NCBI RefSeq assembly: GCF_949628265.1
Contig: NC_088789.1
Location: 31,365,883-31,429,882, forward strand
DNA length: 64,000 nucleotides
Reading direction: 5' to 3'
Origin: Cloeon dipterum
Lineage: Eukaryota > Arthropoda > Insecta > Ephemeroptera > Baetidae
Shown here in pieces: positions 7,580-63,587 of the stretch. Both the position numbers and the translations under genes were made by a program. The notes under the pieces are model-generated. The model saw nothing but the letters and a program-made list of their open reading frames with translations. It ran no database searches and had not been told where the DNA came from. Positions within the stretch are counted from its first letter, which is position 1. Each line of letters starts with the position of its first letter.

Positions 7580-9990
7580 ATGGAAAGCCAAATAAGGAGT
7601 CAAGAGATGCAGCCGCCGACAGGCAAAAAAGGAAAACCTCCGATTCAAAAGCCGCTGTGCCGCCTGTGCGAGTGTCCGACGTCGGACGGCCACGTCCGCG
7701 CGTCGCAGGTGGACAGGATCAAGCTGCGGACATGGGCCATGAAGGTCTTGGACCTGAGAGCAAGAGATGGAAATTTGCCGATGTTGATCGGAGAGGACCA
7801 TTTGATCTGCTATTTTTGCATCTGGCAGGCCGAGTGAGTTAATTTTCAAGATAATAAAATTGCAGGTATTTTATTTTTACGCGTGTTTAAGGTTTGATGA
7901 TGAGTCTGGAGATGATTCCCTTGCTTGGTGGCCGAAAAACCTTGATTTGGCAGAGAACGCTAAGATTCTTCGAGAGAATTATTCAGGTAGGGAATTTTTA
8001 TAAAAATAATAAACAGCGTGATTTCAATGGTTTCAATTTTACAGCTGGGGAGGTTGATCAGTGTTGGGTGCAGTTGGAAGAGGTTGATCTTGACAAACAA
8101 ACAGAGGAAATCCCCAAGAAAAGGAAACGACGCGTCGGTGGAGTGTGTATTTACTGCGGCAACCGTTACAATCAACTGATGGAGCACGTCAAACTGATGC
8201 ATAAAAAAGCCATCAAATGCGGATTTTATGGCTGCACGACATATTTTCACACCGAGAAGGAAAAAGAGCAGCACATGCAGGAGGACATCTACGCAAAACA
8301 CTTCAAACGAAGGGAAAGGAGGAATGTTCGTTGCAAATTTTGTAAAAACGTCAAATTTTCACGCTCATTGGAAGTTTTGCGGGCGCACATGAACCGCTTC
8401 CATCCGGAACTGGTGGCGTGCACGCGAGTAGGCTGCAAAGAGTACTTCAAAAGCAAGTCCGAAATGATTCAACACATCATCTCGTCGCACAAACGAGCCA
8501 TAAATCAAGATCATTTCAAGTGCATGCAATGTGAATATTTCACTACGGTAAAGTGCAATTTGAAAAAACACGTAGAGTCGAAGCACATGCCAAAGACCTT
8601 CAAATGCGACAGTTGCGACGCCAAATTCGGCTCGAAACGGATAGTGAACAGGCACTACCAACTTTGTCACACGTCCACAAAATGCAAATCTTGCGGCCAG
8701 GAGGTGGTTCTCGGATACAAGCCAATCCACGGAAGGCCAACGGTTTGCTCCACATGCAAACGCAGTTTCGACTGCTTGGGTGTGTTTCTATTTCATAAAA
8801 AGATGTGCTGCGAAGAAAACATCCATAAATGCGAAGAGTGCGGAAAAGAATTCCCCAAGAGTTGGAACTTAGATTGCCACGTGGTTAGAGTTCACGCCAA
8901 ACCTGTCAAAGCCGAGTATTTCCGCTGCGAGCATTGCAACTATTCGACATTACACAAGAGTCGCGTTACGGAGCACATGCATTGGAGCCATTTTCCAAAG
9001 ACGATCAAGTGTGACGAGTGCGACAAATTGTTCGCCACTGAATCTTTTCTCAAGCATCACAAGCGCAGGTCGCACCAAAACGTCCATTGCGCAGAGTGCG
9101 CGCAGGAGGTGCCCCGTCACACCATGTCTAATCACCGGCTTTCCAAGGCTTGCCACCGCTGCAAGGGCAAGTTCAGGTGCGCAGGTTTGTACCAATTGCA
9201 TTGGGAGAACTGCAAACAAACCGTCTTTACTTGCAAGGAGTGTGGAAAAATGTTCACCATCCATTGTGAGTTGAGTCGCCACGTGAAGAGAGTTCACACC
9301 AAAACTGTCAAAACCGCTGTTTTTCTCTGCGCGCATTGCGACCATTCTTCAACTGACAAGAGACGCATGTCGGATCACATGCAATGCAGACATCTTCCGA
9401 AGAAGATTAAGTGCAAGGAGTGCAACACAAGGTATGCCTCGCAATATTTTCTCAAGCGTCACATAAACCGGTGGCACGAATACGTTCATTGCTCAGAGTG
9501 TGGGCAGGAGGTACGCCGTCACGCCATGTTTCGACACCGGCGCATCAAGACCTGCCGCTACTGCGAACGCAAGGCGGGCTGCTCAGGACTTCTGGAACAG
9601 CACGAGAAGAACTGCCGGATAAATTCAAAGCAGCGGGGTCCAGATTCGTGCGTAAATTCCAAGCAGCAGGGTCCAGATTCGTGCGTAAACTCCAAGCAGC
9701 GGGGTCCGGATTCGTGCGTAAATTCCAAGCAGCGGGGTCCAGATTCGTGCGGAAATTCCAAGCAGCGGGGTCCAGATTCGTGCGTAAATTCCAAGCAGCG
9801 GGGTCCGGATTCGTGCGTAAATTCCAAGCAGCGGGGTCCAGATTCGTGCGGAAATTCCAAGCAGCGGGGTCCAGATTCGTGCGTAAATTCCAAGCAGCAG
9901 GGTCCGGATTCGTGCGTAAATTCCAAGCAGCGGGGTCCAGATTCGTGCGACGCGCAGATATGGCGTCCGGTGGATTATGGCGCGAAATAA
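7580..9990 (+). CDS. ZAD-like zinc-finger protein, gene C, with transposon-derived C terminus
   Basis: Exons 7580-7833, 7892-7986 and 8045-9990 join in phase to about 764 residues. Exons 1-2 encode the ZAD-like module. Exon 3 has the two linker fingers and about three five-finger modules up to GLLEQHEKNCRI. From about residue 646 the sequence is not zinc finger: ten tandem copies of an 11-residue unit (NSKQRGPDSCV and variants) and then DAQIWRPVDYGAK. This part is encoded by an inserted MITE (9631-10200) and its expanded terminus. The old 3' end, with the TGACAAGTGCCCGAAAATG remnant of a final CDKC finger, lies after the insertion near 10214. The repeated cysteine-containing tail is new; its effect is unknown. 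Confidence 0.82.
9631..9960 (+). repeat. 33-bp coding minisatellite grown from a MITE terminus
   Basis: Ten tandem copies of a 33-bp unit containing CAGCGGGGTCCAGATTCGTG. The unit equals the terminal sequence of the hAT-like MITE plus host-flank bases (AAATTCAAAG-like). Unit length is a multiple of three, so the reading frame of gene C is kept. Copies differ at only a few bases (CGG/CAG, CCA/CCG, CGT/CGG), which points to recent expansion. Confidence 0.85.
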
Positions 9991-42774: not shown

Positions 42775-44399
42775 GACTTTAGAAATATGAATTGCCTCAC
42801 TGCTTGTGAGCAGTCCGAAAACCTTAGAATAAAATATCTGCGTCTTGCTGGCCTGGCAAGAGCGCGCGACTAAATATTCTCAGCAACTTCTAATCTTAAA
42901 TAAATAGTCCAGTTTCTCCAAAAATTAGCGAAAACTATGAAAATTGCAAACTGATTGATAAATTAATCTCCTTTTTATTAATTACATTATTATCTTTGAA
43001 TTCTGTATTTATGAAATGGAAAAGTAGAAATTATAAACCGCCGTTTAACTGCTGTCTAACAATGATTTATGATGTGGTTTTATTGGAACGTAAAAGTGAC
43101 TCTAACATTTATAAAAAGGCTTTCAATCGCGATATTGGCCATATTTACCGTTACGTTAACTATTAAAACGCAGACGAGACTTTGACAAAAATGCTTTCTA
43201 ATTAATTCTAAACTCAAAAGTACTATTTTTTATCTTCTCGCTATTACATACGCATATTTTTTCTCACCCCGGAGGCAATTAATTTGCTTTGCCAAAAAAG
43301 AGGGCGTAACCAGAAGAATTCTAAAAACTCCGATTTCCCCCCAAACCCGATCGCGGGCGGCGACCACCGGGTGGGGGCGCGACCTGCGGCGCCGGAAACG
43401 CCGAGAAAACCGGCTCGGGGAGCGAGCTCAGGGCGGCCACCCTGAGAAAGGTCGCCGGGGTTCGTCGGGGTGTGTGACCCGGCAAGACGCTTCCGATGAG
43501 GGGTCGCGCGTGAAAATCGCTCCACCCGTCAAAAAGTTAGACTGAAAAAACCGAGGCGCTCCGTTCGAGTGATTGGCAAATTTTTGAAAATGAAAAACGA
43601 TTGCGGTGGGGGTCGTTTTTGCACGCCAGGTTGAAGTCCTTGGCGAGCACTTTCGAATGAGGGCTCTCGGTCGACGCTGCGGCAAATACTTGAATTTTAA
43701 CAAAAATATGTCTTCGCGCTGGGCAAAATAAATGCGCCTGCTGTGCACGCTGCGCCGCTCGCGCGAATTCGAAACGCACCTTTATGCACTCTAAATCAAA
43801 CGAAGGAAGCAAAATGAATCGTTGCCGCCGGTTGAATCGCGTAGTAAAAGTGCTCAGGGTGGGCGACCTGAGACCTGAGGAAGGTTGGTGGTTTGAAATG
43901 TGGGTAGTAGTGTTAACTTGCTTAAAAACGCCGAAAATTCAATTAAATTCGGCCTGGGAATCGGTCTCAGGTCGGGGGACCCTGAGAAGGTCGTTTGGGC
44001 ACGCTAGGTTGAAGTCATTTGAGGGGTCGCGGTCGTCGCTGCGACGAATATTCGAATTTTGGCAAAAATAGAATCATTTCAGGCGGTGCGTGTGCGCTGC
44101 TGTGCAAACGTTTTGCACACCAAAAAACGAAAAACCCTTAAAAAAATTAATTTGGGCAGAGCTAGACCGCTGAAAATTGAGATTCAGACACGCGCGCACG
44201 CAGTCGTGTGCATCCGATGGTCAAATTTGGTATTCAGCGCCCGGCGGCTCCGCGGCGCCGCTGCGCGTATTTTCAGCCTGGCCATTTGCGTGCTGAGCAA
44301 ATCGCGGATTTTCAATGCTCCGCCGTGATTCACCTATGGCCCGGATTTCCACCAAAATCGGTTTGCAGGGACTTTTTGCCGGGCGGACGAGTATAGTAT
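42775..44399. other. Gene-poor repetitive stretch
   Basis: AT-rich to about 43300, then GC-rich repeat copies to about 44050, then the start of the right long inverted repeat. Open frames here have no recognisable domains. Confidence 0.3.
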
Positions 44400-45320
44400 A
44401 TCAGTTGAAGCCGAAAATAATTTTTGCTGCCCGAAATCCGAATTCTAAATTCCCATGTCAAGCTTATGGGAGGGGAAAAACCCTTCCGCGGCGCGCGCCA
44501 AACCTATCTCCTCCCAGGTTTTTCATCCGATCAGGTCAAATTTGGTCTTAAAATGTTCGCAGATATATTGCCAATAGATGGTTGTCGCGTTTTGCAAGAA
44601 ATCTAGCTCAGGTCCGGAGATATACCTGCCGAAAGTTACTCGGGGAGGAAATGGGCAAGTTCGCCCGTTTAATAACTTTTTCGCTATGGGGCGGAAAAAT
44701 CTTTTTTGCAAACCGTTGGCTTTATCTACTCGTCGCCTGTTCGAATCTCGAGTTTGGGGGCCCATTGGGCCCCCGCGGGGGGCCGCGAGTACCAAAAAAT
44801 CGCGTTTTTCAACTTAGAAGGGTCACCGCTGACCCTGAGGAGGTCACCCGGATTTCATACTCGCAGGGCCTTAGTTTTTTGGGCAAACTTAAAGATTGGC
44901 TATCTTGGAATTTTGATCCCAAACAAAGTAGGCTCCCGTGTTAATCTTATGGGAATTTCGACTTTTGCCTGTTTTTAACCCTTTCGGCCCTTCCATCTCC
45001 GGCGGCGTTCGAGCAGGATGGTGGTACTACCCGTCAAAATGAAGCTAATTGCTGCCTCTTTTGAGTGGTAGCGTGGGCCTTCTTGCGGGCCCACCGAAAA
45101 AATAATTATTGTCCAAACCACGTTTTTCGACCTTCCGAATTTTATATCTCGGCCGCTATGGGACTTGCGGGCTAAAACCTAAAACCGGTGTTGCCTGAAT
45201 GCGCTGTTAAATTCTGCGGGTGGTGGGCTAGTTTTCGACCCACCAACCACCACGCACCCCCCGTTGCCCCCGTGAGAATGTCGAAAAGGCCTTGTTTTGT
45301 TTTTTTTAAATTCGCCTATA
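44400..45320 (-). repeat. Right member of the diverged long inverted repeat
   Basis: Reverse-complement partner of 37580-38400. GC-rich blocks around 44760 and 45450 have long C/G runs. No gene. Confidence 0.45.
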
Positions 45321-45539
45321 GGAGGAATCGCGGGTTTCTCCGTTGAAGACGCGTTTGTGGGTGACGCTCGGTCGACCACCCGGGTTTCGCCCCGATCCGC
45401 CCCGTTTTGGCGATGTTTTTACACAGGAGCATAGGGAGGCCGCTTGCAAACGGGGGGCCCCCCGGCTGCCAAAAATCTCGGGGGCCCAGACCCAATTGTC
45501 CCCCTGCCCCCACCCCCGCCCCCCTGTCATGAAGCATTA

Positions 45540-46130
45540 AATAGTAGGGCAACAAAAATATACGAAATGGAATTTTCTGCTGCGGCAACAGGTGATTTCA
45601 CATGAGTAGAGCCACTGTCAGCGTTTGGCTATCGTGCTTGCCGCTGCGAAATAAACAGGCAAGAGACAGACTGACCATGCGGCTCAATCAACTGTAAGCC
45701 ATGTGGGGCACAGCTATGGGGCACAGTAGTTGTCCTGTTGATCTGCAATAAATAATTTCTGAATCTGAAGTTAAAAATTGAAATGTTTAGAAGATATAAC
45801 GAAACACGCGTTCTAACGTGTTCTGCATGAAAAAATATATATCTATTATTGTTGCAGTAGTTGGAAGTACTTAACTCTATTAATCAACAATAATTATCTA
45901 TCAACTTTTCTGACCTCAGTCACTTTTTGGTCAGAAAAAATAGGACAATATTTTACAGGGAAAACTCTTTAGTCTTGAAACATCTTTGTAACATATTTAT
46001 CCTATACAATAATTAACTATCGTTTCCACCCACGCGAAGCATTTATTTAATGAAAGAAATTATGTACTATGAGTTACTATTCTTCATTCTTTCGTTGTGC
46101 CACTTCCTTTGATTACAGATTTGTTTATGA
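45540..46130. other. AT-rich upstream flank of the caspase-NACHT gene
   Basis: No gene seen. A pyrimidine-rich acceptor-like TTGATTACAG ends near 46114, so the first coding exon could be preceded by a spliced 5' UTR. Confidence 0.3.
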
Positions 46131-46181
46131 AATGGAAATATGAACAGCTTGTGAAAACGACATTGAAATCATCCCAGTTCG

Positions 46182-49100
46182 ATGGAAACGGAAGGAAATT
46201 ATTTCGCGTACTGTTTGGACACGAACACCAAAAATAATTACTTCATTGTACCGTCTAAGTATTTGAAACCAAGAGCAAATGCAAGACATTCGAATCCAGG
46301 AGTTGCCTGGGACACTCTAGGACAAGAATTCTGGGGAGGTGTGTTCCAATCAGCATGGCACGAGTCTTTGGTAGTAGACCCTGACGATGGGTCCTTCCTG
46401 GACCAGACACCCAAGACTGACACAGATTTTGAGCACTTGCTGACCGAGGCAGAGTACAAAGAAAGTCTCGTTCTTGCCACTGCTTCCTCTGTCCAAGAAC
46501 TGCAACAGTACGTTGGAACGTGCAATATCAAAGTTCCAAAAAAATTCCGACGATTGGATTTTTCCGACGCTTCAGCAAGTCAACAACACGACGAGTCGCA
46601 GCAGGTACATCAAGAGTTTATTTTATTTTGAAACCGCACTTATTTATATTAATTGCTCTGATTTTCTCTTGACATCTCTAGCCCGTAAACTCGAAAAATT
46701 AAAAAATAATTTCTGCGACAACTTTTCAGCAAAACAACCAAGTCAGGAGTAGCCAATCCAATCAGCAATCAAATAATCAAGGTTACTCAACTAGCTCGGA
46801 GGAATCAGCTTCAACCACAATATCAAAAAGAGGTGTGTCCGTCCAAGAACTGCCACATCACGGAAAAGCTGGCAAAGGCAATGTTCAAAATAGCAAACGA
46901 AGTTTGGATTCTGTCGCTTCAAGTAGTCAACAATACGACGAGGCGAAGCAGGTACATCAAGAATCTATTTTCTTTAAAACTACTTTTATAGGAAGTCCTC
47001 TAAATTGGTTATTGACGCCTAGAACTTGAACCTGAAAAAATGATAAATAAAATACTTTCTACGAAAATGTTTCAGCAGAATGAAAAAAAGCGATTCAGGA
47101 GTAGCGAATGCAATCAGCAATCGAGCAATCAAGATTACTCAACGGCCTCAAAAAGCTTGGAGGAATCAGCTTCTACCACATTATCACAAAGTTGTGTGTC
47201 CGTCCAAGAACTGCCACATCACGGAAAAGCTGGCAATGTCAACGTTCAAAATAGAAAACGAAGTTTGGATTCTGTCGCTTCAGCTAGTCAACAGCACGAC
47301 GTGACGAAGCAGGTATATATCAAGAATTAATTTTCTCTTACATCACTGTAAACTCTGAATTAATCTATTGACGTCTAGAACTTTAAACCGAGAAATGATA
47401 AAAAAGACTTTCTACGAAAATGTTTCAGCAGAATGAAAAGCGATTTAGGAGTAGCGAATGCAATCAGCAAACGAAAAATGAGGATTTCTCAACGGCATCA
47501 AAAAACTTGGAAGAGCAAAACTCTACCTCAAAAAATTTTTCTACAGGAGCAACTCCTTTCATTACGCCAATTGTATTGGAAGATCCGATCGAGTCGCATG
47601 ATGACTCAGAGAATGAGATAGGTATAATGCCTCTTTAATGCGTGTTTACTAGAAAGGGTTCCATTTCCGGCATTACTTGAGTTGTGAGGAAATAATTATT
47701 GCTAATAATTTTTTCCAGACTATTCGCACATTCGGCCTGAAGGAGTAGCTAACCTAGGATTTTTTGAATATGAAATCGATGGAAAAGTCAATAGACAAAA
47801 CGCAGACAAGTAATTATCCAGAGTTAAATTATAATTTGAAACTAATATCGTTCTTTCAAGTGTTTGTGTCTTAGTCATTCACTACGATTTCATAAATGAT
47901 CCGCTGTTCCGGAACGGAGACGCCTCTGACGTAGAATGCCTAAAGACTATCTTCAGGGAAAACCGGAATTGCAATTTCCGTGACATTCTGTCACCGAGCA
48001 AAAAGACTTTGCTCAAACTTCTCAGCGATCAAGAAAAGCTTTTGCGGTTTTTCAACTTACAAGGTAAACACGTTCAAATTAAAATTCATCTAAATATATA
48101 TGATCGTTTGTTTTTGTTCAGACGAAGTGCCCTCTGTTTTCATGCTTTTCTTTCTCTCTCATGGGACTGTAAACGGAAAAATATGGACCAGCCACGTCGA
48201 AAGGGAAACCAATGAACCCGTGTATTTCACAACAGATGAAGTCTTTGACTCATTACAGAAGCTACGGAGATTCGACAAATGTTTGAAAGTCGTGAATTTT
48301 GGGGTGAGCATCAAAAACAAAATTTCTATATTTATATTTAAGAGAATTTCAGTGTTACATAAAAGTATTATTCCATGTTTCAGTCATGTCGGGGATCCTT
48401 GTACGATTCTAAGTTCAACTCGAAGAATTCATTAGAAAACTATGAAAACAAGAATTCATGTAGAATTACCAGTCGCCCAGGAATGCACAACTATGTCGTG
48501 TTCTATTCGACAGTAGAAAGTATTTTTAACTTTAGCGATTACTCCTTCGGGACATTTATTTATTTTTAACATATTTTATAGCAACATTGGCAAACACTGA
48601 TGAAAAAGGGTCATGGTTTGTAAGAAGCATCTGCACAAGTCTGAACCAAGCAAATGATGAGCCATTGTTGGATTTCTTCACAATTGTTCAGAATCGAATG
48701 CATAAAACGTCATGCGAATTCACGACCTTTGATAAAAATATTCCTTTGGGGCAGACACCAGAGCTCAAAATGTTTACACAAGACAGAAAATTCGTAATCT
48801 CAAAGTGAGTGTCGTAAATAAACGGACAATGTCAATAAAAGCAATCGTATAGTTGACTCTTCTTAAATCTATAGAATCTTATTAACAACATTCATACAAC
48901 TTTTTTCAGGACGACAATCGCAGCAAAACCTTTTTCAAACACTGATGGGTCTGGTAACGTGAGCAAGATCTCAAATGAAATACTTTCCAGACAGTTCTCC
49001 TGGAAATCGAATGAAGGACAAGATATCAGGGGTCGTAGAGGTTTCATTTTATCCTTGGTCCAAAACAAACAAGTGCAAGAAGTGAAAAGAGCTCTTCATA

Positions 49101-52100
49101 AACTAGACTTCGAAATAAGAGACTGGTCTCTTAGCAAGGACTTTGGCAAGGACTTTTATTTTAAAATGGGTGAGTATCAAAACAGAAAAATAATTATATT
49201 TGGTTTAATTATGGTATTACAGTGTCCGAGTTGGAACCAGACGTGGGCTGCATTTTGACTTGCATATTTGGCCCTGTGTGTGTAAACGAACACAAAGAGG
49301 TTTGCGTGCGCGTGCAAAAGGGTCAAGAGATTCCAATCACGGACATCCTACACAGTTTTGTCGGCCCAAAAAACGACAAATTGATAGGAAAGCCGAAAAT
49401 TCTGTTCGTTGTTAACGTGAAAGCTCCACAAACGGACGATGTAAGTCATCCTCCAACTGATGCGATAGATATTAGAGTTTGATAAATATCTTTTTATTTA
49501 GATCCCCGTGCCCATGAAAGATTTACAAGTCGATGCTACAAACCACAGTGGCTGGCTGGTTTTGATTCTAAAATTTGAAGGTAATTTTTGAATAGTTGCA
49601 TGGCGGCTTCAAGGCATTTAATAAATAAATTCTCTCACATAGATGCATTAGAGAAGTTGATTGAACTTCTGGGAAATATTGGTGAAAAATGCCTGCAAGA
49701 ACTTCTGGGGCCTCTGCTAACTCGTGAGTCCAATATAGAGGAGATGGTTCTTCTCAATTCTACTTTGCAGTATCTATTGAAATTTCCTACTTGGCCAAGA
49801 ACATTTGTCAAACCAGATTTTGTACTACAAAATATAAAAATCCCCCGTGGCGAAATGAGTAGATTTAAATATTCAATGGAATATACTTTTTGGATGGAGA
49901 TCGATTTTGATACATTATTGAAAGAGGTCAAACAATTGTTTGAGGAAAACAAAAATTCAATAGAGCTTCAGACAATGAGTCATCGAAACAAAACACAAAC
50001 TTCAATCGAGGTTGAACCTTCGATAATGTCACTGCCCGTCAAAAACTCTATGGCGAGAGATTGGTCTGACGCGAGCTATTTTTGGATATTTAATTCAGTT
50101 GCTGGAGCAGGCAAATCGACCGTACTCGTAGAAATGGCGCACCAACTCGCAAAAGTTGACGAAGGGTTAAGATTACTTCTGATTCCCATAAAAAAATATT
50201 ATCGGTACTTATTTGACATGCCAGTGAATATTGTGAATGAAGTCGAATTCCTCGCAAAAACAACTTGCAATTCTCATGACGACATCAACAACTGGATAAA
50301 GAAGAGAGAAGTTATTGTTTTCCTCGACGGTTTTGACGAAGTGTGCCCAGATTTCAGAGAAAAAATCATCAAAATTTTGATCGCATTGAATAATGCAAGA
50401 GTCCCACTCTTCATCGGAACCAGGCCTCATGAATTGCACCACGTTCAAGAGAGGATAAAAAACTCGACAGTAGTTGAGATCAAACCCCTGGACGAAGCTA
50501 AGCAAATCGAGTTTCTGGAAAAAGTGGCAAAAAAGAAAAAGGAAGAAATCGAAAAATTGAGGACAGACTTCAAAGACAAAGACATTCTGGAAAACCCACT
50601 CTATCTCAAATTGTTGGCGGAGTACAAAGGTGATGGAAACTTGTATGACATCTTTGACAAAATGGTGCGGAACAAAGTGCAAATTTGTTTGAAGAGAGAA
50701 AACGAAGGCATAGATGTTGGAGAGGGCGGGATGTTTGAAGATTCATTGAAATTCATACAATTGGTGGCCTCTCGTTACTTAACAGGAGTGAAGATCGACC
50801 AAGGCAGTGTTACGAAAGAAGCATTGGAGAAGATCAACGCTTTTGGAGTTGTGACATACTGCAATGAAAGAGTCAATTTCACTCACCAAACATTTGCAGA
50901 ATTTCTTACCGCTCAAAAATTTATATACGACTTAAAAAATCCAGTAGCCGAAGAAGTGCCCTTGTTCAACGATGAATTGGTGCAGTGCAGAAAGTTCGTT
51001 AACCTTTTCTTTTCTATGGAAAAGGGAGAGCACGCTTCTTACACAGAGTCCTTTAAGATTTGGGCCGCTAAATCAACCAACCGTTTAAATATGGTCAGAC
51101 AAATATGTGGAGAGAATTTGAGAGAAGTGTTCAAGTTTCTCAGCCCAGCTGATTTCTCATTAAAAGATGACAACGGTAAAAACGCTTTGCACTTCGCATT
51201 GCGGAACCTTGAGATGGTCAAGTTGGTGCACCAAAAAAATAGCGAGTTGGCGACCGAAACAACCAACACTGGAGAAAGCTGTCTCCACCTGGCGATTGAT
51301 GACTACAAATGCAGCGAAGAAGTGGCTCTTTGGATCTTGCAAAACACTGAGGTGGGTAAAAATGCTGAAACTAAATTGAATTACACAACGCTTCTGCGGG
51401 CTTGTCAAAGAGAAAAATGGGAAGTAGCAGCTCAGCTTGTAACGAAGCACAATATTGAAATAAATGATCCAAATAAATCACGAGAAAAATCAATTTTGCA
51501 GTACGCCGTCCAGTCGAATAATACCGATTTAGTGCAAGGACTTCTTGATAGGGGCTCCAATGTAAATTTAAAAGATTGTTTTGGAGTAACAGCTCTTCAC
51601 CTAGCAGCTGGATCGAATGGAAACTCAGAAATTGTGAAAATTTTGCTTGAAAAAGGTGCCAAAGTAAACGCACAAGACAAAGACAAACGAACTGCGTTGC
51701 ATTACGCCGCTAAACATCACGAAGATACAGTAGTAGTGCAAAAACTACTAGAATACGGCGTCGACGTTAATTTACAAGATGAAGAAGGATTCACAGCTCT
51801 TCACCTAGCAGCTAAGTCAAATGGAAACCCTGAAATTGTAAACATTCTGCTCGAAAATGGTGCCAGAGTAAACTTAGAAGACAATAGAAAACGAAATGCA
51901 TTGCATTACGCCGCTAGCTCTAACGATGCAGGAGTGGTTCAAAAGCTGCTAGAATATGGTGCCGACGTCAATTCACAAGACGAAGAAGGATTCACAGCTC
52001 TTCACCTAGCAGCTAGATCATATTTAAACCCAGAAATATTAAAACATATGCTTACGAAAGGTGCCAAAGTACACTTACAGAACAAGAAAAAACGAACTGC

Positions 52101-54537
52101 ATTGCATTACGCCGCTAAACATCACGAAGATACAGAAGTAGTGCAAAAGCTTCTTGAATACTGCATCGACGTTAATTTACAAGATGAAGAAGGATTCACA
52201 GCTCTTCACCTAGCAGCTAAGTCAAATGGAAACCCTGAAATTGTAAACATTCTGCTCGAAAATGGTGCCAAAGTAAACTTAGAAGACAATAGAAAACGAA
52301 ATGCATTGCATTACGCCGCTAGCTCTAACGATGCAGGAGTGGTTCAAAAGCTGCTAGAATATGGAGCCGACGTTCATTCACAAGACGAAGAAGGAATCGC
52401 AGCTCTTCACCTAGCAGCTAGATCAAATGAAAACCCAGAAATTTTGGATATTTTGCTTGAAAATGGTGCCGAAGTAAACTTACAAAACAATGAAAAACAA
52501 ACTGCATTACATTACGCCTTCGAAAATTTAGAAGATATGGATGATACAGAAGTGATCCAAAAGCTGCTAGAATACGGTGCCGACGTTAATTCACAAGACA
52601 AAAAAGGATTCACAGCTCTTCACCTAGCAGCTAGATCATATTTAAACCCAGAAATATTAAAACATATGCTTACGAAAGGTGCCAAAGTACACTTACAGAA
52701 CAAGAAAAAACGAACTGCATTGCATTACGCCGCTAAACATCACGAAGATACAGAAGTAGTGCAAAAGCTTCTTGAATACTGCATCGACGTTAATTTACAA
52801 GATGAAGAAGGATTCACAGCTCTTCACCTAGCAGCTAGGTCGAATAGAAACCCTCAAATTGTGAAAATTCTGATCGAAAATGGTGCCAAAGTACACTTAA
52901 CAGACAATAATAAGCAAACTGCATTGCATCAGGCCTTTAAAAATAACAAAGTTACTGAAGTGGTTCATAAACTGCTAGAATACGGTGCTGACGTTAACTC
53001 ACAAGATGAAGAAGGATACTCAGCTCTTCACCTAGCAGCTAGATCAAAAGAAAACCCAGAAAATGTCAAACTTTTGCTTGAAAAAGGTGCCAAAGTACAC
53101 TTAGAAAGCATTAAAAAACGAACTGCATTGCATTACGCAGCTGAAAATCACGAAGTTATAGACGATCTGCAAAAACTACTTGAATACGGCGTCGACGTTA
53201 ATTTACAAGATGAAGAAGGATTCACAGCTCTTCACCTAGCAGCTAGGTCGAATAGAAACCCTCAAATTGTGAAAATTCTGATCGAAAAAGGTGCCAAAGT
53301 AAACTTAACAGACAATAAAAAAAGAACTGCATTGCATCACGCCTTTAAAAATAACAAAGTTACTGAAGTGGTTCAAAAACTGATAGAGAACGGCGCCGAC
53401 GTCAATTCACAAGACGAAGAAGGATTCACAGCTCTTCACTTAGCAGTTAGGTCGAAAGAGAACCCTGAAATTGTAAAAATTCTGCTCGAAAAAGGTGCCG
53501 AAGTAAATTTAACAGACAATAAAAAGCGATCTGTATTGCATCACGCCTTTGAACATTTAGGACTTATGGTCGATACAGAAGGGATCCAAAAGCTGCTAGA
53601 ATACGGCGTCGATGTTGATTTACAAGATGAAGAAGGATTCACAGCTCTTCACCTAGCAGCTAGGTCAAATAAAAACCCTGAAGTTGTTAAAATTTTGCTC
53701 GAAAAAGGTGCTCAAGTACACTTAACAGACAATAAAAAGCGAACTGCATTGCATCACGCCTTTAAAAATAGCGAAGTTACAGAAGTGGTTCAAAAACTGC
53801 TAGAGTACGGTGCCGACGTCAATTCACAAGACGAAGAAGGATTCACTGCTCTTCACCTAGCAGCTTGGTCAAATGGAAACCCTGAATTTGTGAAAATTCT
53901 GCTTGAAAAAAGTGCCAAAATAAACGAATTAGACAATGATAAATGGACCCCACTGCATTTTGCCGCTAAATTTAACCAAGTTCCAGAAATTACCCAAATG
54001 TTGCTGGAAAATGGCGCCGAAATTCATTCACGATGTCAACAAGGATCAACGGCCCTTCATCAAGCCGCTGGATGGAACAAAAACCCGGAAATAGTTAAGA
54101 TTTTGCTCGATAAAGGTGCAAAAATAAACGCAGTAGGCAATACAAAATGGACTCCACTGCATTTGGCCGCTAGATTTAACCCAGCTTCAGATATTGTCCA
54201 AATGCTGCTCGAAAACGGTGCCGACGTTCATTTACAAAGTCAAGGAGAAATAACAGCCCTTCACCTAGCTGCTGGATCTAGTGAAAACCCAGAAATTGTG
54301 GAATCTTTGCTTCAAAAAGGTGCCGAAATAAATGTAGAAAATGCTCTTGGAGAGACTGCTTTATTTCTAGCGGCAAAGCATAATCGAGTGAAAGAAGTGG
54401 TTCAAAAACTGCTCGACCATGGTGCAAAAGTAAATGAAATGATTAGGAATGACAAAGAATGTGTCGGTGTATTACGTAAAATGAAGGTCAACTCTGAAGT
54501 TCTTAGAATACTAAATGAAAATGACTCTGATGTATAG
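46182..54537 (+). CDS. Caspase / pseudocaspase / NACHT / ankyrin fusion protein
   Basis: Thirteen exons join in phase: 46182-46604, 46730-46951, 47076-47312, 47429-47621, 47719-47809, 47861-48063, 48122-48303, 48384-48519, 48582-48804, 48910-49169, 49223-49440, 49502-49580 and 49643-54537, about 2,453 residues. Residues 1-141 are a novel region (METEGNYFAYC); 142-358 are Ser/Gln-rich repeats. A caspase domain (~390-635) has the RNGD pocket motif, LSHG (His ~470), SCRG (Cys ~519) and GSWFV of p10; the usual Q before ACRG is G and the p10 SWR motif is altered. A second caspase-like domain (~680-822) keeps the fold (KLIGKPKILFVV) but lacks His and Cys. NACHT follows: GAGKST (~977), IVFLDGFDEV (~1046), THQTFAEFL. 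About 32 ankyrin repeats run from ~1331. It is likely a cytosolic NLR-like receptor whose oligomerisation activates its own protease. Confidence 0.8.
46730..47621 (+). repeat. Tandem triplicated exon in the caspase-NACHT gene
   Basis: Exons at 46730, 47076 and 47429 (222, 237 and 193 nt) are copies of each other: RSSxxNQQ ... SVQELPHHGKAG ... KRSLDSVA. The first two are phase 0 at both ends, so either can be skipped without breaking the frame. The tail of exon 1 (SSVQELQQYVG ... SASQQHDESQQ) is a more distant fourth copy. The repeat is Ser/Gln-rich and probably a flexible linker before the caspase domain. Confidence 0.75.
51167..54470 (+). repeat. Ankyrin-coding tandem array with a two-repeat higher-order unit
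   Basis: About 32 repeats of 33-37 residues, mostly alternating two types: QDEEGFTALHLAARSN...ILLENGAKV and KKRTALHYA...VVQKLLEYGADV, i.e. a unit of about 204 bp. Larger copies exist: the block around 51976-52170 recurs 618 bp later (52594-52790) almost base for base, and 51780-51960 recurs at 52180-52360. The first four repeats and the last five are more divergent. Confidence 0.85.
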
Positions 54538-56090
54538 TAGAATGATCGAAATGACTGTTACGTATTTTGTTTGTTCACAAGAGTGCGCAGGATATCCATA
54601 ACAGAATAATAGTAAATGGCGAAAATAGATCTGTAGTTTGCCACACAATTGCAAAGAAGAAACAATTCTTTAATCTGCAATTTGAAATGAGAAGCACACA
54701 AGCCCAGATATTTGCAAACCTACTATTGTACTATAATATCAAAATTAAACAAACGTTTCAAATTTAAAAATTGTAAATCTAGTTATGTAGTATTGAAGCA
54801 TTGATTTACTAATATTGACTGTATAGCATTATTAACAATGAATCTTAAAGACCTATTGCCTTATAGAGAAATAAAAATTACTTTATAATTATTAATAAGT
54901 TTTGCTAGTATATTTTGATTTGTATCAAATTTTATACAAAAATGTAAATATTTTTAAGTTATTGCATACAAATGTACATGTGTTTAATTAAAATATTTTC
55001 TTAAATGAATAATTGATTTTTAACTAATTTTCATTTCCCTTAAGAATGTATTACACTGTGACACATTTTGCTGAGAATATTCAAAATTAACCCTTTCGCA
55101 CGAAAAGAGATGTCATTTCAGCTTGAATAATTTAGATTTAGATTGATTTTAAATTCCTACTTTAAATTGGTTTATAGTTCATTTTATAGCTATATTTGTT
55201 TGCACGAAAAGGGATTTCATTCATTATCTAATCACAATCAACATTGATTGAAGTGAGTAAACACAGATCAAAATATCTATATTTTATTAAGTAGATCGCA
55301 TAGTTCATGCAAGTTTTGATTCAGATTCTAAGTGTTTATCTCATAAAACTAAAATTTTTTATAAAAATAGTCGCTACATTATAGTTTTAGCTGTCTTTTA
55401 AAGATTTTCTCACAGGGTCGGCCACGAGTACACTGGAGGATTTGTTTCAAGGTTAGTACAAAAACATAATTTTGAAATTTCATGGCGTAAATGACTGCCA
55501 ACACTCCTTCTTTATCTCATCTACGATTAAATAGTGATAAATACAAGTTTCAAGCATATTCATTGTAATAATATTATTTAATTAAAAATGTTTTATTTGC
55601 TCGTCAAGATGGTGTAACTATATGTCAATAAATACCCTTATGTTCCAGGTAAAAATGTGTCGATCTGAAGGAGTGAAGAATCTCTAGGTTCATTTCAACC
55701 AGACATATGACTTCGTAAAGGCTTCAGACGTGTACATTTTCAAATATTAGATCCAGCACTGATTCATTTAATTGGAATTTTATTTAAATTGTAGAATACA
55801 TAATATTTTTAATTAATTATTATTGGTGTGTAGTTTAATACGTGTAAACATACTGAATTTGGCAGTCACTATATCAATGAGTGTTGTTCATTTTAGACTT
55901 GCTTTTCTGCATTGGAACATTTTGCAAAGAATCCTATTTTCCCACATATGCGTCAGTTTGATGTTGTAATATTTCTATGAGAACCAACTTTAGCGTTGTG
56001 TCAGCCTATCACTTACTTAGAGGTTGGTTTACTTAAGTGGGGAAATCGGTAGTCTAGGAAGGAATAAATATCAGGGGGGCCGCAGTTCAT
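54538..56090. other. 3' UTR of the fusion gene and AT-rich spacer
   Basis: An AATAAA at 54870 may be the poly(A) signal. The rest is AT-rich. An exon-like block at about 55421-55451 between CTCACAG and GTTAGT is too short to assign. Confidence 0.3.
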
Positions 56091-56130: not shown

Positions 56131-58406
56131 ATGAAGAGAAGGCAGTACTTGAGCCCGGGGACTCGGACCGCAGACGGCATATGGGCTAACGTGGAACCGG
56201 CTCTTTCTACGCTTGATTGGGCCATTTTAGTGGACATGGAGGTAAGTGATCGGGTACTGACCAATCAGCAGTGATTTTTAGTAGTTTGGCACCAATAGTT
56301 GTGCACAGCAAATCGTAAAAACGGCTTAAACGAGCAGCTAAAGTAAAGCCTACTGCGGGCCGGGATGTGTTTTGTCAGGATGTAAACAATGTTTTCATCG
56401 CTGATTATGATGCTTGTAAGTTGGTTTAATTCGCATTTCTTTGAGTCTGGGATTGCTAAAATACCTAAAAGACAATATTTTGCCTTGCCTGGCTTGCCTT
56501 CAAGCGAAATTGGCCTTTATTTGAACTCGATTAGTCTACGTATGATAAATTGAAATTGTTTGTATCAGTTTGAACAATTATCGATTCTCGCCTTAAATAT
56601 TTTTAATAATATCTGACCTTACTAATTGTTATTTTGTAACCTTCCAGAGTCCTCCTCCTGCCCTCCATATGGACAGACGACTGAATAGACTGGCGAGGCC
56701 CTCGAGTGCTCCGGCCCCAACATTACTGCAGACGAGCCAGACACCCTTGTTGCTGACGACCTGCTCGCCGTTGCTGCTTCAGAGGACCGCGGTCAGAAGG
56801 CCCTGAAAGGTGCTGAGGGCCCTGAGACTGACCCTGAGACGGTTCGCTGCCAAGAGCGTCGTTACAGCTGTGTTGGGTGAGCACGAGAATGTGGAAAAAA
56901 GTCACAGTTTTCGCCGCCGTGTTACAGTTTTCGCCACCTCTACTCTAACATGGGATTCTCTTAAGAACTGGCGAGATGTGTAACCCGGCAGAAACTGTGA
57001 CTTAACCATAGCTTATGTGAACGAATTGTTGCAACCATACAATGTTCCAAATTTGTCCAGTTCTTTTTATTCTCTTATCATTCACCAAGGAATGATTACA
57101 TAGAAATTCTTTCAAGGCAAAAGATGCAATTTTCGCAATTTTCAAACTTGGTATGCAGCCGGCCTGGCTGTCACAAAGATACAACCTGAAAACTAAACTG
57201 CCCTTGTTTTTCAGCCTTTCCGAGCACCGCGATGGTCGTGCTGTCAAGACAACCGCTAAAAGTGCATGCCAGCTCTCCAGACCGACAAGCCGACTGCCAC
57301 CAATGGAATTGCCAGCGCCAAACCTGTGCGGTCATCGAGTGTCTTTGGTAATTATCTTATGAAATCATTTAAATACATTTAGTGGAACGCAGGATCTAAA
57401 CTAGGATTGGCAAACGTGCTTGGATTTTGATTAAATATAGTGTAGTTGTTGCCCTCGTCAACCGTACAATTTTGAGTCAAAATTACGAAAATCGCTATTT
57501 TAAATGGGCTCAAAGTTGACCAATATTTAAATTGTCGATTTTTACATGGAATTGTAATCAGGGTTTGCCAATAGTGCAATGCGCAAAAAAAACTTGAAAA
57601 AAAAACACCAGTTTTGATTTTTTCTGAATTTAACCCCATTTTTACTGACTTGTAACTATCCTTTTTTGTTATCATCCATCATTAGAATTTTAGATTTTCA
57701 ATAAAATTCCACTTGATTCAGAAAAAGCCCGGAAAACACGTGTGCAGTCCGACCAATGCAGAGCCAGAGGAGCTGGAGGGTGCGACCAATCTGCGTCGGG
57801 CCCAAGATACCGTGGGAGGTGCTGGACTCGCTGGTGCAAGAGGCCTTTGTCGAGTACCTTTTGTGGCTGGACCCTGCCAGCAGCCTTGGTCTTCAAGCAG
57901 AGTCGCTCTTTGGCTACCACTTCGGCGAGGTGCAGCGGCTGTGCTGCAGACATTCGTCACTGCTGGACCTGCTGACCTGCAGTTACCTGGTCGGCGACGA
58001 CGTGGTCATCAGGGTGTGTGTCAAGGCCGCACAGCACGCGGGCAGCATGGATGTCCTCACTTTTGAAACGTTAATTCCCAAGGCTTGGATCCAAAGGTAT
58101 TTTTTGGTTTGCTTTCAATACGTCTTGGTACTGTTAAAATTGCACACAGCTCAACAAACAGCTGAATTTTCACTGTTGAAATGATTGTTGCCCTTTTCTT
58201 GCAACAAGGAAAATTGCGTAAGGTTGTTGAGCTATGCGCATCAAGACGAATAGTATGTATATGTAGTTATTATATTATTTTTATCTCTCTTTGCAGCTGA
58301 TCTATTATTGAGCTGGAGTGATGAGAAGGAAAAAATCCAGCCCGAACTTCAATTGCAAGCCGGATTGCCTGCGAGCAAGCCAGTACTATTCCAGCTTCTA
58401 CAATGA
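56131..58406 (+). CDS. Four-exon gene of unknown function
   Basis: My model is exons 56131-56241, 56689-56876, 57722-58096 and 58313-58406, all in phase, giving about 255 residues. It begins MKRRQYLSPGTRTADGIWAN. Exon 3 holds the best-looking part: KIPWEVLDSLVQEAFVEYLL, GYHFGEVQRL, LLTCSYLVGDDVVI and DVLTFETLIPKAWIQ. The last exon adds SWSDEKEKIQPELQLQA. I do not recognise the family; there is no signal peptide or membrane segment. The acceptors of exons 2 and 4 are the second AG of each region (GAATAG, ATTGAG), chosen because the first AG leads to a stop, so those borders are uncertain. Exons 3-4 lie inside the inverted repeats that bracket the transposase; exons 1-2 lie outside. Confidence 0.5.
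56899..57003. mobile_element. Small inverted-repeat element in intron 2
   Basis: AAGTCACAGTTTTCGCC at the left and GGCAGAAACTGTGACTT at the right are near-perfect inverted repeats about 105 bp apart, with an internal third copy of ACAGTTTTCGCC. No clear target duplication. Confidence 0.4.
57155..57487 (+). repeat. Left copy of a near-identical inverted repeat
   Basis: 333 bp, identical to the reverse complement of 63668-64000 except for one base seen (CCGCGATGG against CCGTGATGG). It contains an exon-like block (TTTTTCAG ... TTTG/GTAATT) that I rejected as coding. The outer end is not defined because the partner runs off the window. Confidence 0.85.
58140..58245. repeat. Short repeat in intron 3, related to the inner edge of the right inverted repeat
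   Basis: AGCTCAACAAAC ... TTTTCACTGTT ... ATTGTTGCCCTTTT ... TTGCAACAA matches the reverse complement of 63585-63660 in the same order. In the right copy it is directly joined to the 333-bp repeat; on the left they are about 650 bp apart. Confidence 0.55.
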
Positions 58407-59206: not shown

Positions 59207-62200
59207 ATGCCGTCAAACTGTGCGGTATTTGGCTGCAATGTTAGCCATAAAAACTATAACAATTATGCTGATGACTTTTCTGCAAAGGTAAATAGATGCC
59301 AAAAAATGCAAATTTTTTATTTTAAAATCAACTGCCAATATTTTGCACATATAGTTTAAGCAATTGATGCTTTTCTTCAGAAAATTGCATATTGGTGCAG
59401 TAAATTTAACTGACCAACTCAATTTTTCTAAATAAATTAAATAAAAATAAACACATAAAACCGCATTATAGAACTCCTACAGCATAAATATTTCATGATT
59501 TTTTAATATCTAAATTTAAAATTTAAAAAAATGGAAAAATCATTGTGCGACTTTTAGATTTTAATGAAAACCATAAAATCTAATTAGTAAAGCCACCGAA
59601 TTAGCAATATACAGTATATATAGAAAACTGCCTGTAAACAAGAAATATCTGACCACGGTGTGTGTTTTGGTGCTCTCACTTTCAAATAATTTTTTTCAGG
59701 TGCCTAGTGCAATTGGGTTTCGCTTTTTCAGTGTGCCCAACAGCTCTGAATTAAAGGAAAAATGGATTTGGGCAACAGGAAGGCCTAGGGAGAACATCAA
59801 GAACGTGCAGAATCTTCGTTTCTGTTCTCTTCATTTTTCAAGAGCACAGTACTTGGAGGACAAATTGCAGAGGCTTATGAACACTGGCAGCAAAGCCACT
59901 GGCCAAATTTTAAGGGATGACGCAATTCCCGATGTTCTCCCTTGGAAAACAAATCAAACAGGACTTGACATTGTCGTTGGAAGATCAGAGCGTGCACTGG
60001 CTAGGCGGCAAAGGTATATAATAAAGTTTTAAAAGTATGCAGACTGGTGTTTTTATCATATTAGTAAGATATGGGTTACAATTTAATTAATTTATTTTAA
60101 AATTTTGTGAAAAATTCTCTCAACGTAAACAACATAAACCAAACAGAAGGAAAAAATCTTAAAAAATTAAAAAAGAAATAACGTGCGATTATTATATTAT
60201 TTTTTTCTCATTCAGTCTTAAATAACTTTGCCTAAATGCTGGATAGTTTTGTTAACTTATTTCAAGTAATAATAATAAGAGGGAAACTTGCTCAGGTTCC
60301 TAAGCAAAGGCACTGATATCCCTATGCAAACGCATCAGAACTTCAGCTTCTCATCAGCAGTGCTCATTGTACCAGCTCTTTAAGCCTCTTCGACATCATG
60401 CTGTTTGATTTTTTTCAGTCAGATCTCGAATTTCTTCTGTCTCGGCTTTTTCACTATCTATTCCGTTGTTTCCCAAAGAAAAAAAATAAAAATTTGGTCA
60501 CTTTAATGAGTCTAGTAAATTTATGATAAAAACCTTCTAGTTATTATAGAACTCCAGCAGACCAAATGATACAAAAAAATTGCGCTGAGCATGAAAATGA
60601 CAGTGAGACCGCTGGTGGAGATTTTGTTCAAGAGGAGGATGTTCATATGGCCACATCAGAACAAACTCTGCGAACAGAAAAGTATAAAAACATTTGAAAT
60701 GCATCTCATTAATACTAACTTACATAATTGCTCTTCTTTAATAACCTAGACACAGGCAAGATTCACAAAAACCGCCCAAGGTTGGGTGTTCAGCTGCTGG
60801 CGGAATTAAAATGGATCTCATGGGTGCGGGTTCTCCCTCTGACTTCTTTCTATGGTAAGACTGCCAAAATGCCCAAACCTAAAACAATAAAAGACAAATT
60901 ATGATAATTTAAGTAAAATTAATAACATTACTATAACATAATGGTGAGAAAAATTTAGATTAATATTATCTTCATTGGCAGGCTGACGAAGAGGCTGTAT
61001 GGTGTAAAAATGCCACCCTATGCTCAGAAAGATGAGGGCTATGAGAGCAGATACTCATGTGAGATTGTGTCAAGGTAACCAGAAGCAAATAAATATATCC
61101 AGTAATCATATATGAATATAAAATTTTCAGACAAATCATTAAGGATTGCTTGAATAAGTTAAACAATCAAGAATCTGAACTGGCAAAAATAGCGGCGAAG
61201 CTTCATGAAGAGGAAAAAGAGAAATTGGAGTTGACCAAGCAAATCAATGCTTTGAAGGACAAAGTAATCAAGTTGGAAGGTGAAATTACGAAGATCAGAG
61301 AAAACACCTCGAAACGATTGACAGCAGCGCAGACGGCCAGGCTGCTTGATGGAAAGCAACCACACTATGACGAGTCAGATTATGAAATTGCTATTCGTCT
61401 CTACGCAGCTGGCGGAGCCAAGGCCTACGAAATTGTCAGGGTTGAGCTCAAAATTCCTGTACCATCAATTTCTTCTCTTCAGAGATACTTGAGTCGGATG
61501 GACTTCTCTCCGGGGTTTTTAAAACCATCACTCTCTCTGTTAAAAATTGCACTGCCGTCAATGCCAAATCTGGAAAGGATAGTGGTAGTGTCAATTGATG
61601 AAACTGGCACAGGATTTAAATATTGTTTTGATCCAAAAATGGAAAAAGTGGTTGCCCCTCACAGGTACTTGCAGGTAGTACTTGTCAGAGGCTTGTTCTC
61701 AAACTGGAGCACTGCACTCTATTACAACTTTTCTACACCGACATCAAAGGACCTCATCGAAGCTGTCATGCGTGAAGCTCATACCACTGGACTGACAGTT
61801 GCAGCGCTGGTCTGTGACATGGGTTCAAGCAACGTGGGTGCGTTGAAAACCATGGGTGTGAGCAAAGACAAGCCATATTTCACCCACCCAGTAACAGGAA
61901 AGCCTGTATTCTGTTTTTACGACGCACCACATTTGCTTAAACAAGCCAGAAACCACTTCCTTGACGAGGGGGGAATTAAAATTCAGCCAGAAGAAGGAAG
62001 CAGGAACAGGGTAACTGCAACAAGAGATCCAGTGGATGAGCTGTTGGCAAACAGCAGCACTTACGAGATGCCATCACACAACATTCTGGCTTCAGATCTG
62101 CATGTCCAAGGATATGAGAAACAAAAGGTCGACAAGGCTGTGAGACTCCTCTCCAAAAAAACAAGCTCTGCCCTGCTTGCTGCTGGAAACAATGGTCTAC

Positions 62201-63587
62201 TGGTGTCATCAAATTACGCTGTAAATCAAACTCATCTTAAACTGTAAAAAAAATTAATTATTATTTTACACAGGCTACCGCAACGTACTGCAGAGTTATT
62301 AGCAGTTTCTTTTCGATCTTTAACACCCGACCAAAGTCACTGGATGAGAAAGATGAGGAAGGAGAAAGTGAACCATGTTTGTCCCCGTTTGGCAGATACC
62401 CAGATCAACAGGCACAAATACTGAAAGAAGTTTACAACTTTGCCAGAAATTTGAGTGTTGTTGACAAAAACACAGGAAAATCAAAGATCCAGCCATGGCA
62501 GGATGGTATTATGCAAAGCTGCAAGGCTCTGGAGAAATTGCACCAGTACATGGTTGAACAGTACGGAGAACTTGGTGCTTCCGAGCTGTTCACCATCCGT
62601 CTAAATCAAGACCCATTGGAACGGTATTTTGGTGCACTGCGCTCTGCTTTTGGGGCCAACACCATCCCAGACCCTGTAGAGGTACAGAGGCGTATCAAAA
62701 TGATGACGCTGGGCAACTTTTCCAATGCAAACACAAGGAAGACCAATGTTGCTCTTGCCACAGCAATGGAGAAAGAAGGAATCTCTTTGCTTTCAATCGC
62801 GGTAAATTTTAAGATTTATATTAAATTAAATTTTTAAGTATTTAAATTTTAAAATATTCAAATTTAAAATTTTACTGTTAGTTGAAACTTAATAGAATAA
62901 TACTCCAATTATGTTGTAGACTATGAAGGCGCTTCATGCTGAGGCAAGTAAGGCTGGAGACAAATCTCAAGATGAAGATGGACCTGAAGAGGAGGTGGAG
63001 GAAGAAGACGAAGAGGGAGGTGTCTGCGCCAACTCATACGAGATTCCAACAGACTGGAGTCCTCCTCACCACGACGTTGACTACGACGTTAGTCTCAAAG
63101 ATATCGCAGATGAAGTCGCGGGAAGAATGGGAGTTAAGTTCCCAGGTCTGGTTGCACTTGGCGCGAAAAATAGAGCCGCACAGGAGAGTCACCTCTCAAG
63201 CAGCAGCAGCGTCCCGGCATCGACCTTGCTCCGCAACCAAGTGGATGAAATGGACATAATGTTCAGAAAATTCCACGGGAATCTGCTAAATGGGGATGGC
63301 CAAGCTGACTTGCAAAACGACGTCCACAAGAGGTAGACAAATATTAGTAAAAAATATAAGATTATAACTCATGCTTTATCCAACATAGATTCGCAGAACA
63401 GATCACAAATAGTCTGCCACAGGTTGCTTACGAGGTCGCGCTTTGCTTCTCACGTCGAAGACTCAGAATGAGAATGCGTTTCTTGAATGAAAACATCTGG
63501 AGGTCGAGAAAAAGGAAAAGCAATAGCCAAGTCGAGTTTGATGACAAAAACAGCAGGACTAGCAAAAAGAACAGATTGCACAAATAA
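59207..63587 (+). CDS. P-element-like THAP transposase, apparently intact
   Basis: Nine exons join in phase: 59207-59287, 59700-60013, 60541-60681, 60750-60854, 60982-61074, 61131-62220, 62274-62801, 62920-63332 and 63389-63587, about 987 residues. The N terminus is a THAP zinc-binding domain (MPSNCAVFGC ... FCSLHF ... DAIPDVLPW). A coiled coil follows (about 61160-61320). The core has the P-transposase motifs SIDETG, LVCDMGSSNVG, YDAPHLLKQARN and QDPLERYFGALRS. The C terminus has an acidic stretch and a basic tail (WRSRKRKSNSQ). AATAAA overlaps the stop. It would cut and paste a DNA element bound by its THAP domain; a domesticated role is possible. No stop or frameshift was seen. Confidence 0.85.

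Follow-up and report, generated by a model that had tools for sequence, protein, structure and literature searches.

The 64-kb stretch of DNA analysed here (contig NC_088789.1, positions 31,365,883 to 31,429,882 of the forward strand; hereafter 'the window') contains, at 46182-54537 of its + strand, a predicted gene whose product would carry a caspase domain, a second caspase-like domain, a NACHT domain and a long array of ankyrin repeats on one polypeptide. Our preferred reading, to which we assign a probability of about 0.6, is that the locus is one host gene of an animal, coding for an all-in-one STAND (signal transduction ATPases with numerous domains; NOD-like) receptor, in which the ankyrin array may act as sensor, the NACHT domain as oligomeriser and the tethered caspase as effector. 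When spliced by script, thirteen exons join into 7,362 nt with a sole, terminal stop codon, i.e. into a protein of 2,453 amino acids (aa), without a frame break, just as an initial annotation of this DNA had it, and all 12 introns, which are 51-125 bp long, are of the GT-AG type (table 1).

The profile search for which the initial annotation had called recovers all three modules. In a Pfam scan of five protein pieces, exons 2-3 being left out, Peptidase_C14 matched aa 390-626 (E 1.5e-16; 61.3 bits versus a cut-off of 21.4), NACHT was found with E 1e-7, and Ank_2 from about aa 1331 with E 6.2e-228. The tripartite layout of STAND/NOD-like proteins is thus complete, with the protease at the N-terminus, ankyrin repeats at the C-terminus and, between them, a NACHT domain with SVAGAGKST (50095-50121) and VFLDGFDE (50317-50340), which we take to be its Walker A and Walker B motifs. 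The canonical animal NOD-like receptor (NLR), which combines NACHT and leucine-rich repeats (LRRs) with a death-fold domain, is a different type: none of CARD, DED, PYD, Death or LRR is among the Pfam matches listed at E<=1 for the five pieces (for the longest, 25 of 35 families). The absence of a death-fold adaptor domain from the scanned pieces is consistent with direct tethering of the caspase.

An obvious question is whether the tethered caspase actually cuts. All PDB matches of the first caspase domain that are listed (60 of 112) are caspases, mostly caspase-3, which is also the closest match (E 2.6e-4), and there is no metacaspase among those listed. His470 in the motif LSHG (codon 48160-48162) and Cys519 in SCRGS (codon 48387-48389) align with the catalytic His and Cys of caspase-3, and the p10 part has a GSWF motif and a region aligned to caspase-3 p12 chains. 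Two other features of animal caspases (C14A) are missing, and both speak against a functional effector: the active-site pentapeptide is GSCRG and not QACxG, with Gln and Ala replaced, and the p10 stretch from YST to GSWF, where caspase-3 has SWRN, contains no Arg. The Gln of QACxG and the S1-pocket Arg of p10 help to bind the substrate aspartate. With both altered, domain 1 is possibly inactive or changed in its specificity; as judged from its residues, proteolytic activity is plausible, but neither it nor specificity for aspartate is assured. The initial annotation, which placed sensor, oligomeriser and protease on one chain, was thus correct for the modules of the predicted chain, but took for granted a protease activity that GSCRG and the missing p10 Arg put in doubt. 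The domain could even be a catalytically dead scaffold that retains the caspase fold for binding without any cutting. Both replacements would fit this idea, as would a second caspase-like domain that already lacks its catalytic Cys; with Cys519, His470, LSHG and GSWF intact, however, and a Peptidase_C14 score that far above its cut-off, we consider a dead scaffold rather unlikely.

The second domain, encoded by exons 10-12, resembles a caspase p20 and is predicted to be a pseudocaspase, in line with the second caspase-like domain claimed initially. At E<=1 it has 19 PDB matches, of which 18 are caspases and one is a designed inhibitor; as 10 of the 18 are caspase-8 entries, they do not count as independent. 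An exactly reversed copy of the exon 10-12 sequence, used as a control, gave one PDB match, a ribosomal protein, and no caspases. At the position of the catalytic Cys the second domain reads KPKILFVVNVKAP (VVNVKAP in the context of the alignment), and it is this absence of the Cys which makes it a candidate pseudocaspase. The idea that both catalytic residues had been lost was dropped for the His, as His747 (in VNEHKE) is aligned to the catalytic His of caspase-8. The similarity to caspases is weak (best E 0.0094), and a p10 belonging to the second domain was looked for and not found; a p10 spanning the 49580/49643 junction had no support either. Pfam gave no match for exons 10-12 at E<=1 or <=10, and BLASTP of domain 1 versus the second domain gave nothing notable (best E 0.90).

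To what extent the exons form one gene was assessed with a small gene model that learned its coding part solely from 50104-51600 and its noncoding part from five stretches, of which two lie inside or overlap the modelled region; its splice matrices were generic, and it was run over 45560-55200 with three penalty sets. All three sets yielded a single gene in which exons 2 and 5-12, 9 of the 13, came out exactly as proposed, and the proposed frame scored highest in 12 of 13 exons, including exon 1; exon 13 is not an independent test, because the coding training stretch lies within it. Retaining the introns one at a time led to a stop in the kept intron or the next exon in 12 of 12 cases, and the G+C content (GC) of exons is 0.38-0.46 versus 0.23-0.34 in introns. 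At the level of the sequence, the joining of the exons into one frame is confirmed and, except for exon 1, goes beyond chance.

Several observations nevertheless weigh against this model as drawn. Exon 2 is the one exon that scored higher in another frame, and two extra introns were placed inside exon 13. The acceptors of introns 2 and 3 are weak (rank 132nd of 642), and the donor of intron 4 ranks 42nd of 431, both in the generic matrix. A 5' end different from the proposed exon 1 was preferred, so that the true 5' end and exon 1 are uncertain. Another model, trained on the zinc-finger genes of the window, produced four genes at one of two start penalties; at the other it gave one 18-exon gene, with the ankyrin exon mostly uncalled, and we regard it as uninformative. 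Codon scores did not separate the reading frames at this locus.

The junction at 49580/49643 deserves particular attention, as it links the caspase parts to the NACHT part. In the joined sequence it is of phase 1 and restores a GAT codon, as the initial annotation had stated. The donor of intron 12 is the strongest of 431 and its acceptor ranks 57th of 642, the donor of intron 9 ranks 2nd of 431 (same generic matrix), and retention of intron 12 leads to a stop at about 49589. Forbidding donor 49581 in the model trained on 50104-51600 changed the score by -6.9 log units and forbidding donor 48805 by -8.0 log units, with one gene still predicted in both cases. The locus could also consist of two adjacent genes, one with the caspase domains in tandem and one for a NACHT-ankyrin protein that begins at ATG 49600 (inside intron 12) or ATG 49744, both of which are in the frame of exon 13; NACHT followed by ankyrin repeats in a phage WO protein and NACHT homologues in arthropods, with caspases unmentioned in the available part of that text (PMC5062602), would fit such a split. 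The boundary would have to be confined to about 60-160 bp, however, i.e. to the 62-bp intron 12 and roughly 100 bp of exon 13, exactly where a top-ranked donor and a phase-1 splice restore the frame and where forbidding that donor is costly. A promoter would hardly fit into introns of 51-125 bp, and a gene boundary hardly into intron 12. The pseudocaspase can hardly start a gene of its own, since the sole ATG in its frame (49166) comes shortly before exon 10 ends. Two separate genes thus seem distinctly improbable.

A single gene across the caspase and NACHT parts is most likely on this sequence evidence, and the main rival with respect to its expression is a caspase-only isoform. With intronic or alternative polyadenylation, the main product of the locus might be caspase-only and end at about 48806 or 49589, and the fusion a minor isoform. 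AATAAA is present in introns 2, 9 (48817, 48834) and 12 (49620, 49624), and reading through into intron 9 stops straight after caspase domain 1 (...FVISK), both of which run counter to a predominant full-length product; the motif inside intron 12 makes a short isoform possible. Yet AATAAA is common locally, with 17 occurrences in 45-55.2 kb including several within exon 13, and introns 9 and 12 have the two top-ranked donors (2nd and 1st), so that we regard a mainly caspase-only output as unlikely. Finally, the locus is known here from one assembled sequence, and could in principle be an assembly chimera or a pseudogene. This is very improbable in view of 2,453 codons without stop or frameshift, short introns that are alike throughout, and a proportion of nonsynonymous differences (pN 0.153) lower than that of synonymous ones (pS 0.212) in 12 A-type ankyrin units.

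In the putative single-gene receptor, the ankyrin array would be the sensor. The initial count of about 32 repeats agrees with the 32 obtained by motif spacing, i.e. 30 motif matches plus one repeat for each of two 68-aa gaps. At the DNA level a tandem array at 51589-54332 has a period of 204 bp, 13.4 copies and 77% matches, and the near-identity of some ankyrin units suggests recent unequal exchange within this putative sensor. The ratio of nonsynonymous to synonymous substitution rates (dN/dS) was 0.69 among the A-type units (12 units picked by motif) and 0.63 among nine B-type units, two of which are out of register and make this value unreliable. No second copy of aa 1-1330, the non-ankyrin part, was found within the window. 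In the 5' part of the gene, 46838-47514 and 46488-47164 are 76.6% identical in DNA, introns included, and this tandem exon-intron-exon unit of about 350 bp indicates that the exon 2-4 linker grew by exon duplication. Exon 1 gave Pfam matches all far below the cut-off (best E 0.067) and one PDB match (E 0.74), and its assignment as a Tudor-like domain had no support in either comparison. Structures predicted by AlphaFold without an alignment had a mean predicted local distance difference test score (pLDDT) of 36.0 for the exon 1 region and of 39.4, i.e. unusable, for the NACHT part.

How might such a protein work? Binding of a ligand or a host guard by the ankyrin array could free the NACHT domain, which with ATP would oligomerise and thereby concentrate the caspase domains, allowing them to dimerise and fire. 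Active caspase domains might then cut substrates or their own chain, for instance at Asp649 (NTD|GSG), a candidate site picked by eye between the two caspase domains, and CARD, DED or PYD adaptors would not be required. The pseudocaspase may serve as a built-in partner or brake that tunes activation, by analogy to c-FLIP, which acts on caspase-8; with a second domain that is only weakly caspase-like and has no detected p10, such FLIP-like pairing is doubtful. The most far-reaching version, i.e. a self-contained animal apoptosome or inflammasome that senses, assembles and cuts, has the pseudocaspase as an intramolecular regulator and is freed from aspartate by its altered S1 pocket, seems improbable to us. 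If it is true, animals would have their own equivalent of the all-in-one proteins of bacteria. An animal caspase-NACHT-ankyrin gene would offer a system in which activation of a tethered caspase can be studied without adaptors. In well-studied animals, the jobs of sensing, assembly and proteolysis are on separate proteins. Did animal death platforms come first in all-in-one form, to be split later into sensor, adaptor and protease? The gene would be a direct test case for this question.

Unusual as its architecture is for an animal, the gene follows an all-in-one principle that is already known. Metacaspase-NACHT-WD40 proteins are described as widely distributed in bacteria (PMC3501461), which bears out the likeness to bacterial STAND proteins proposed initially: on one chain, they too have a caspase-superfamily protease followed by NACHT and by repeats at the C-terminus. 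They differ in being prokaryotic, in having a metacaspase instead of an animal caspase and WD40 instead of ankyrin repeats, and in that their description in the available text has no pseudocaspase and does not contain the word 'ankyrin' (PMC3501461). The caspase matches (60 listed of 112) and the 12 introns set the present gene apart from the bacterial metacaspase type. In fungi, NLRs can likewise carry a protease effector inside the chain, which is a CHAT caspase-like or S8 domain and not an animal-type caspase (PMC12881547), and a 2014 paper on fungal NLRs raises the possibility of an ancestral all-in-one form (PMC4986451).

The initial annotation contrasted the gene with known animal inflammasomes and apoptosomes, in which adaptors recruit the caspase as a separate protein; this contrast needs qualifying, as animal receptors fused to a caspase have been described before. 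Amphioxus has LRR-caspase and TNFR-caspase hybrids in which an animal caspase is fused straight to a sensor and adaptors are bypassed; as described, these lack NACHT, and QACXG is intact there (PMC2575513). Brachiopod CASc-RLR receptors also combine a caspase, on the N-terminal side, and an intracellular immune receptor in one chain, but this receptor is RIG-I-like and not NACHT-ankyrin (PMC8998645). In the sponge Dysidea avara, CASc is among the domains in the legend of an NLR architecture figure (PMC12909245), so that a chain of caspase, NACHT and LRR, perhaps in another order, may have been published before; these NLRs have NACHT-LRR instead of NACHT-ankyrin. The phage WO protein resembles the present one in having NACHT followed by ankyrin repeats, with NACHT homologues across arthropods, but the word 'caspase' does not occur in the available text and the phage form has a latrotoxin C-terminal domain (PMC5062602). 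A shrimp NLRC has been reported as an arthropod NACHT protein (PMC12370184), whereas NACHT proteins are reported absent from Drosophila (PMC2575513). If the host is an arthropod, the gene would thus represent a new receptor form in a phylum with known NACHT proteins. No animal caspase-NACHT-ankyrin gene was noticed in the literature within open-access coverage. Overall, the interpretation of the initial annotation is partly supported.

Table 1. Predicted gene structure, protein modules and 3' signal, in window positions.
Feature	Position	Strand	Description
Exon 1	46182-46604	+	141 aa N-terminal, no recognised family; open from ATG; donor AGCAG|gtacat
Exon 2	46730-46951	+	Q/S/N-rich linker (exons 2-4, 46730-47621)
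Exon 3	47076-47312	+	Q/S/N-rich linker
Exon 4	47429-47621	+	Q/S/N-rich linker
Exon 5	47719-47809	+	caspase domain 1 (exons 5-9, 47719-48804; p20 and p10)
Exon 6	47861-48063	+	caspase domain 1
Exon 7	48122-48303	+	caspase domain 1
Exon 8	48384-48519	+	caspase domain 1
Exon 9	48582-48804	+	caspase domain 1
Exon 10	48910-49169	+	p20-like putative pseudocaspase (exons 10-12, 48910-49580)
Exon 11	49223-49440	+	p20-like putative pseudocaspase
Exon 12	49502-49580	+	p20-like putative pseudocaspase
Intron 12	49581-49642	+	62 bp, phase 1, between pseudocaspase and NACHT exon
Exon 13	49643-54537	+	single open frame: helical lead-in (low-confidence prediction), NACHT, ankyrin array, stop
NACHT	50098-50532 (~aa 975-1119)	+	PF05729, E 1e-7, 32.4 bits versus cut-off 26.7
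Ankyrin repeats	51166-54450	+	~32, alternating in a 68-aa two-repeat unit; from motif spacing
Candidate polyadenylation signal	54870-54875	+	AATAAA, motif only; downstream of stop

The introns, the caspase-type matches (60 listed of 112) and the neighbours (a neuron-navigator-like domain, a THAP/TNP-like transposon and C2H2 genes) point to an animal genome as the origin of this locus, its assignment to arthropods being a judgement of the initial annotation. No relative was confirmed by scans of viral contigs, by tblastn against phages or, for the NACHT part, by a scan of prokaryotic genome contigs, the contig scans reaching close relatives only. PADLOC and NCBIfam had no match in the caspase parts they were given, and in the NACHT part weak matches only (mad8, 0.003; EruA, 1.2e-6, with 27 bits versus a cut-off of 1000). 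No inverted repeats bracket the gene; the region 42-57 kb holds five imperfect pairs (72-78%).

The gene is directly preceded by a GC-richer stretch (44001-46000, 0.479), possibly a repeat element. About 3 kb downstream on the + strand, an open reading frame (ORF) at 57717-58181 has a neuron navigator 1-like ubiquitin-like domain (PF23092, E 9.2e-15). It is followed at 59577-62837 by consecutive ORFs with THAP (E 3.1e-8) and TNP-like RNase H (E 3.5e-11 and, short of the cut-off, E 1.2e-4) matches, which represent either a transposon remnant or a gene of the P-element/THAP9-like type. The other side of the window is occupied, at 993-29683, by a cluster of long C2H2 zinc-finger-like ORFs mostly on the + strand, two of which were compared with Pfam and both found to be C2H2. 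The exons preceding the C2H2 ORFs look ZAD-like by eye, with no Pfam match for a joined pair of pieces or an unjoined ORF. Three ORFs of the cluster contain tandem repeats of 393-402 bp, and the ORF at 7891-9990 ends in ten 11-aa repeats (9620-9949; 33-bp unit, 94% matches).

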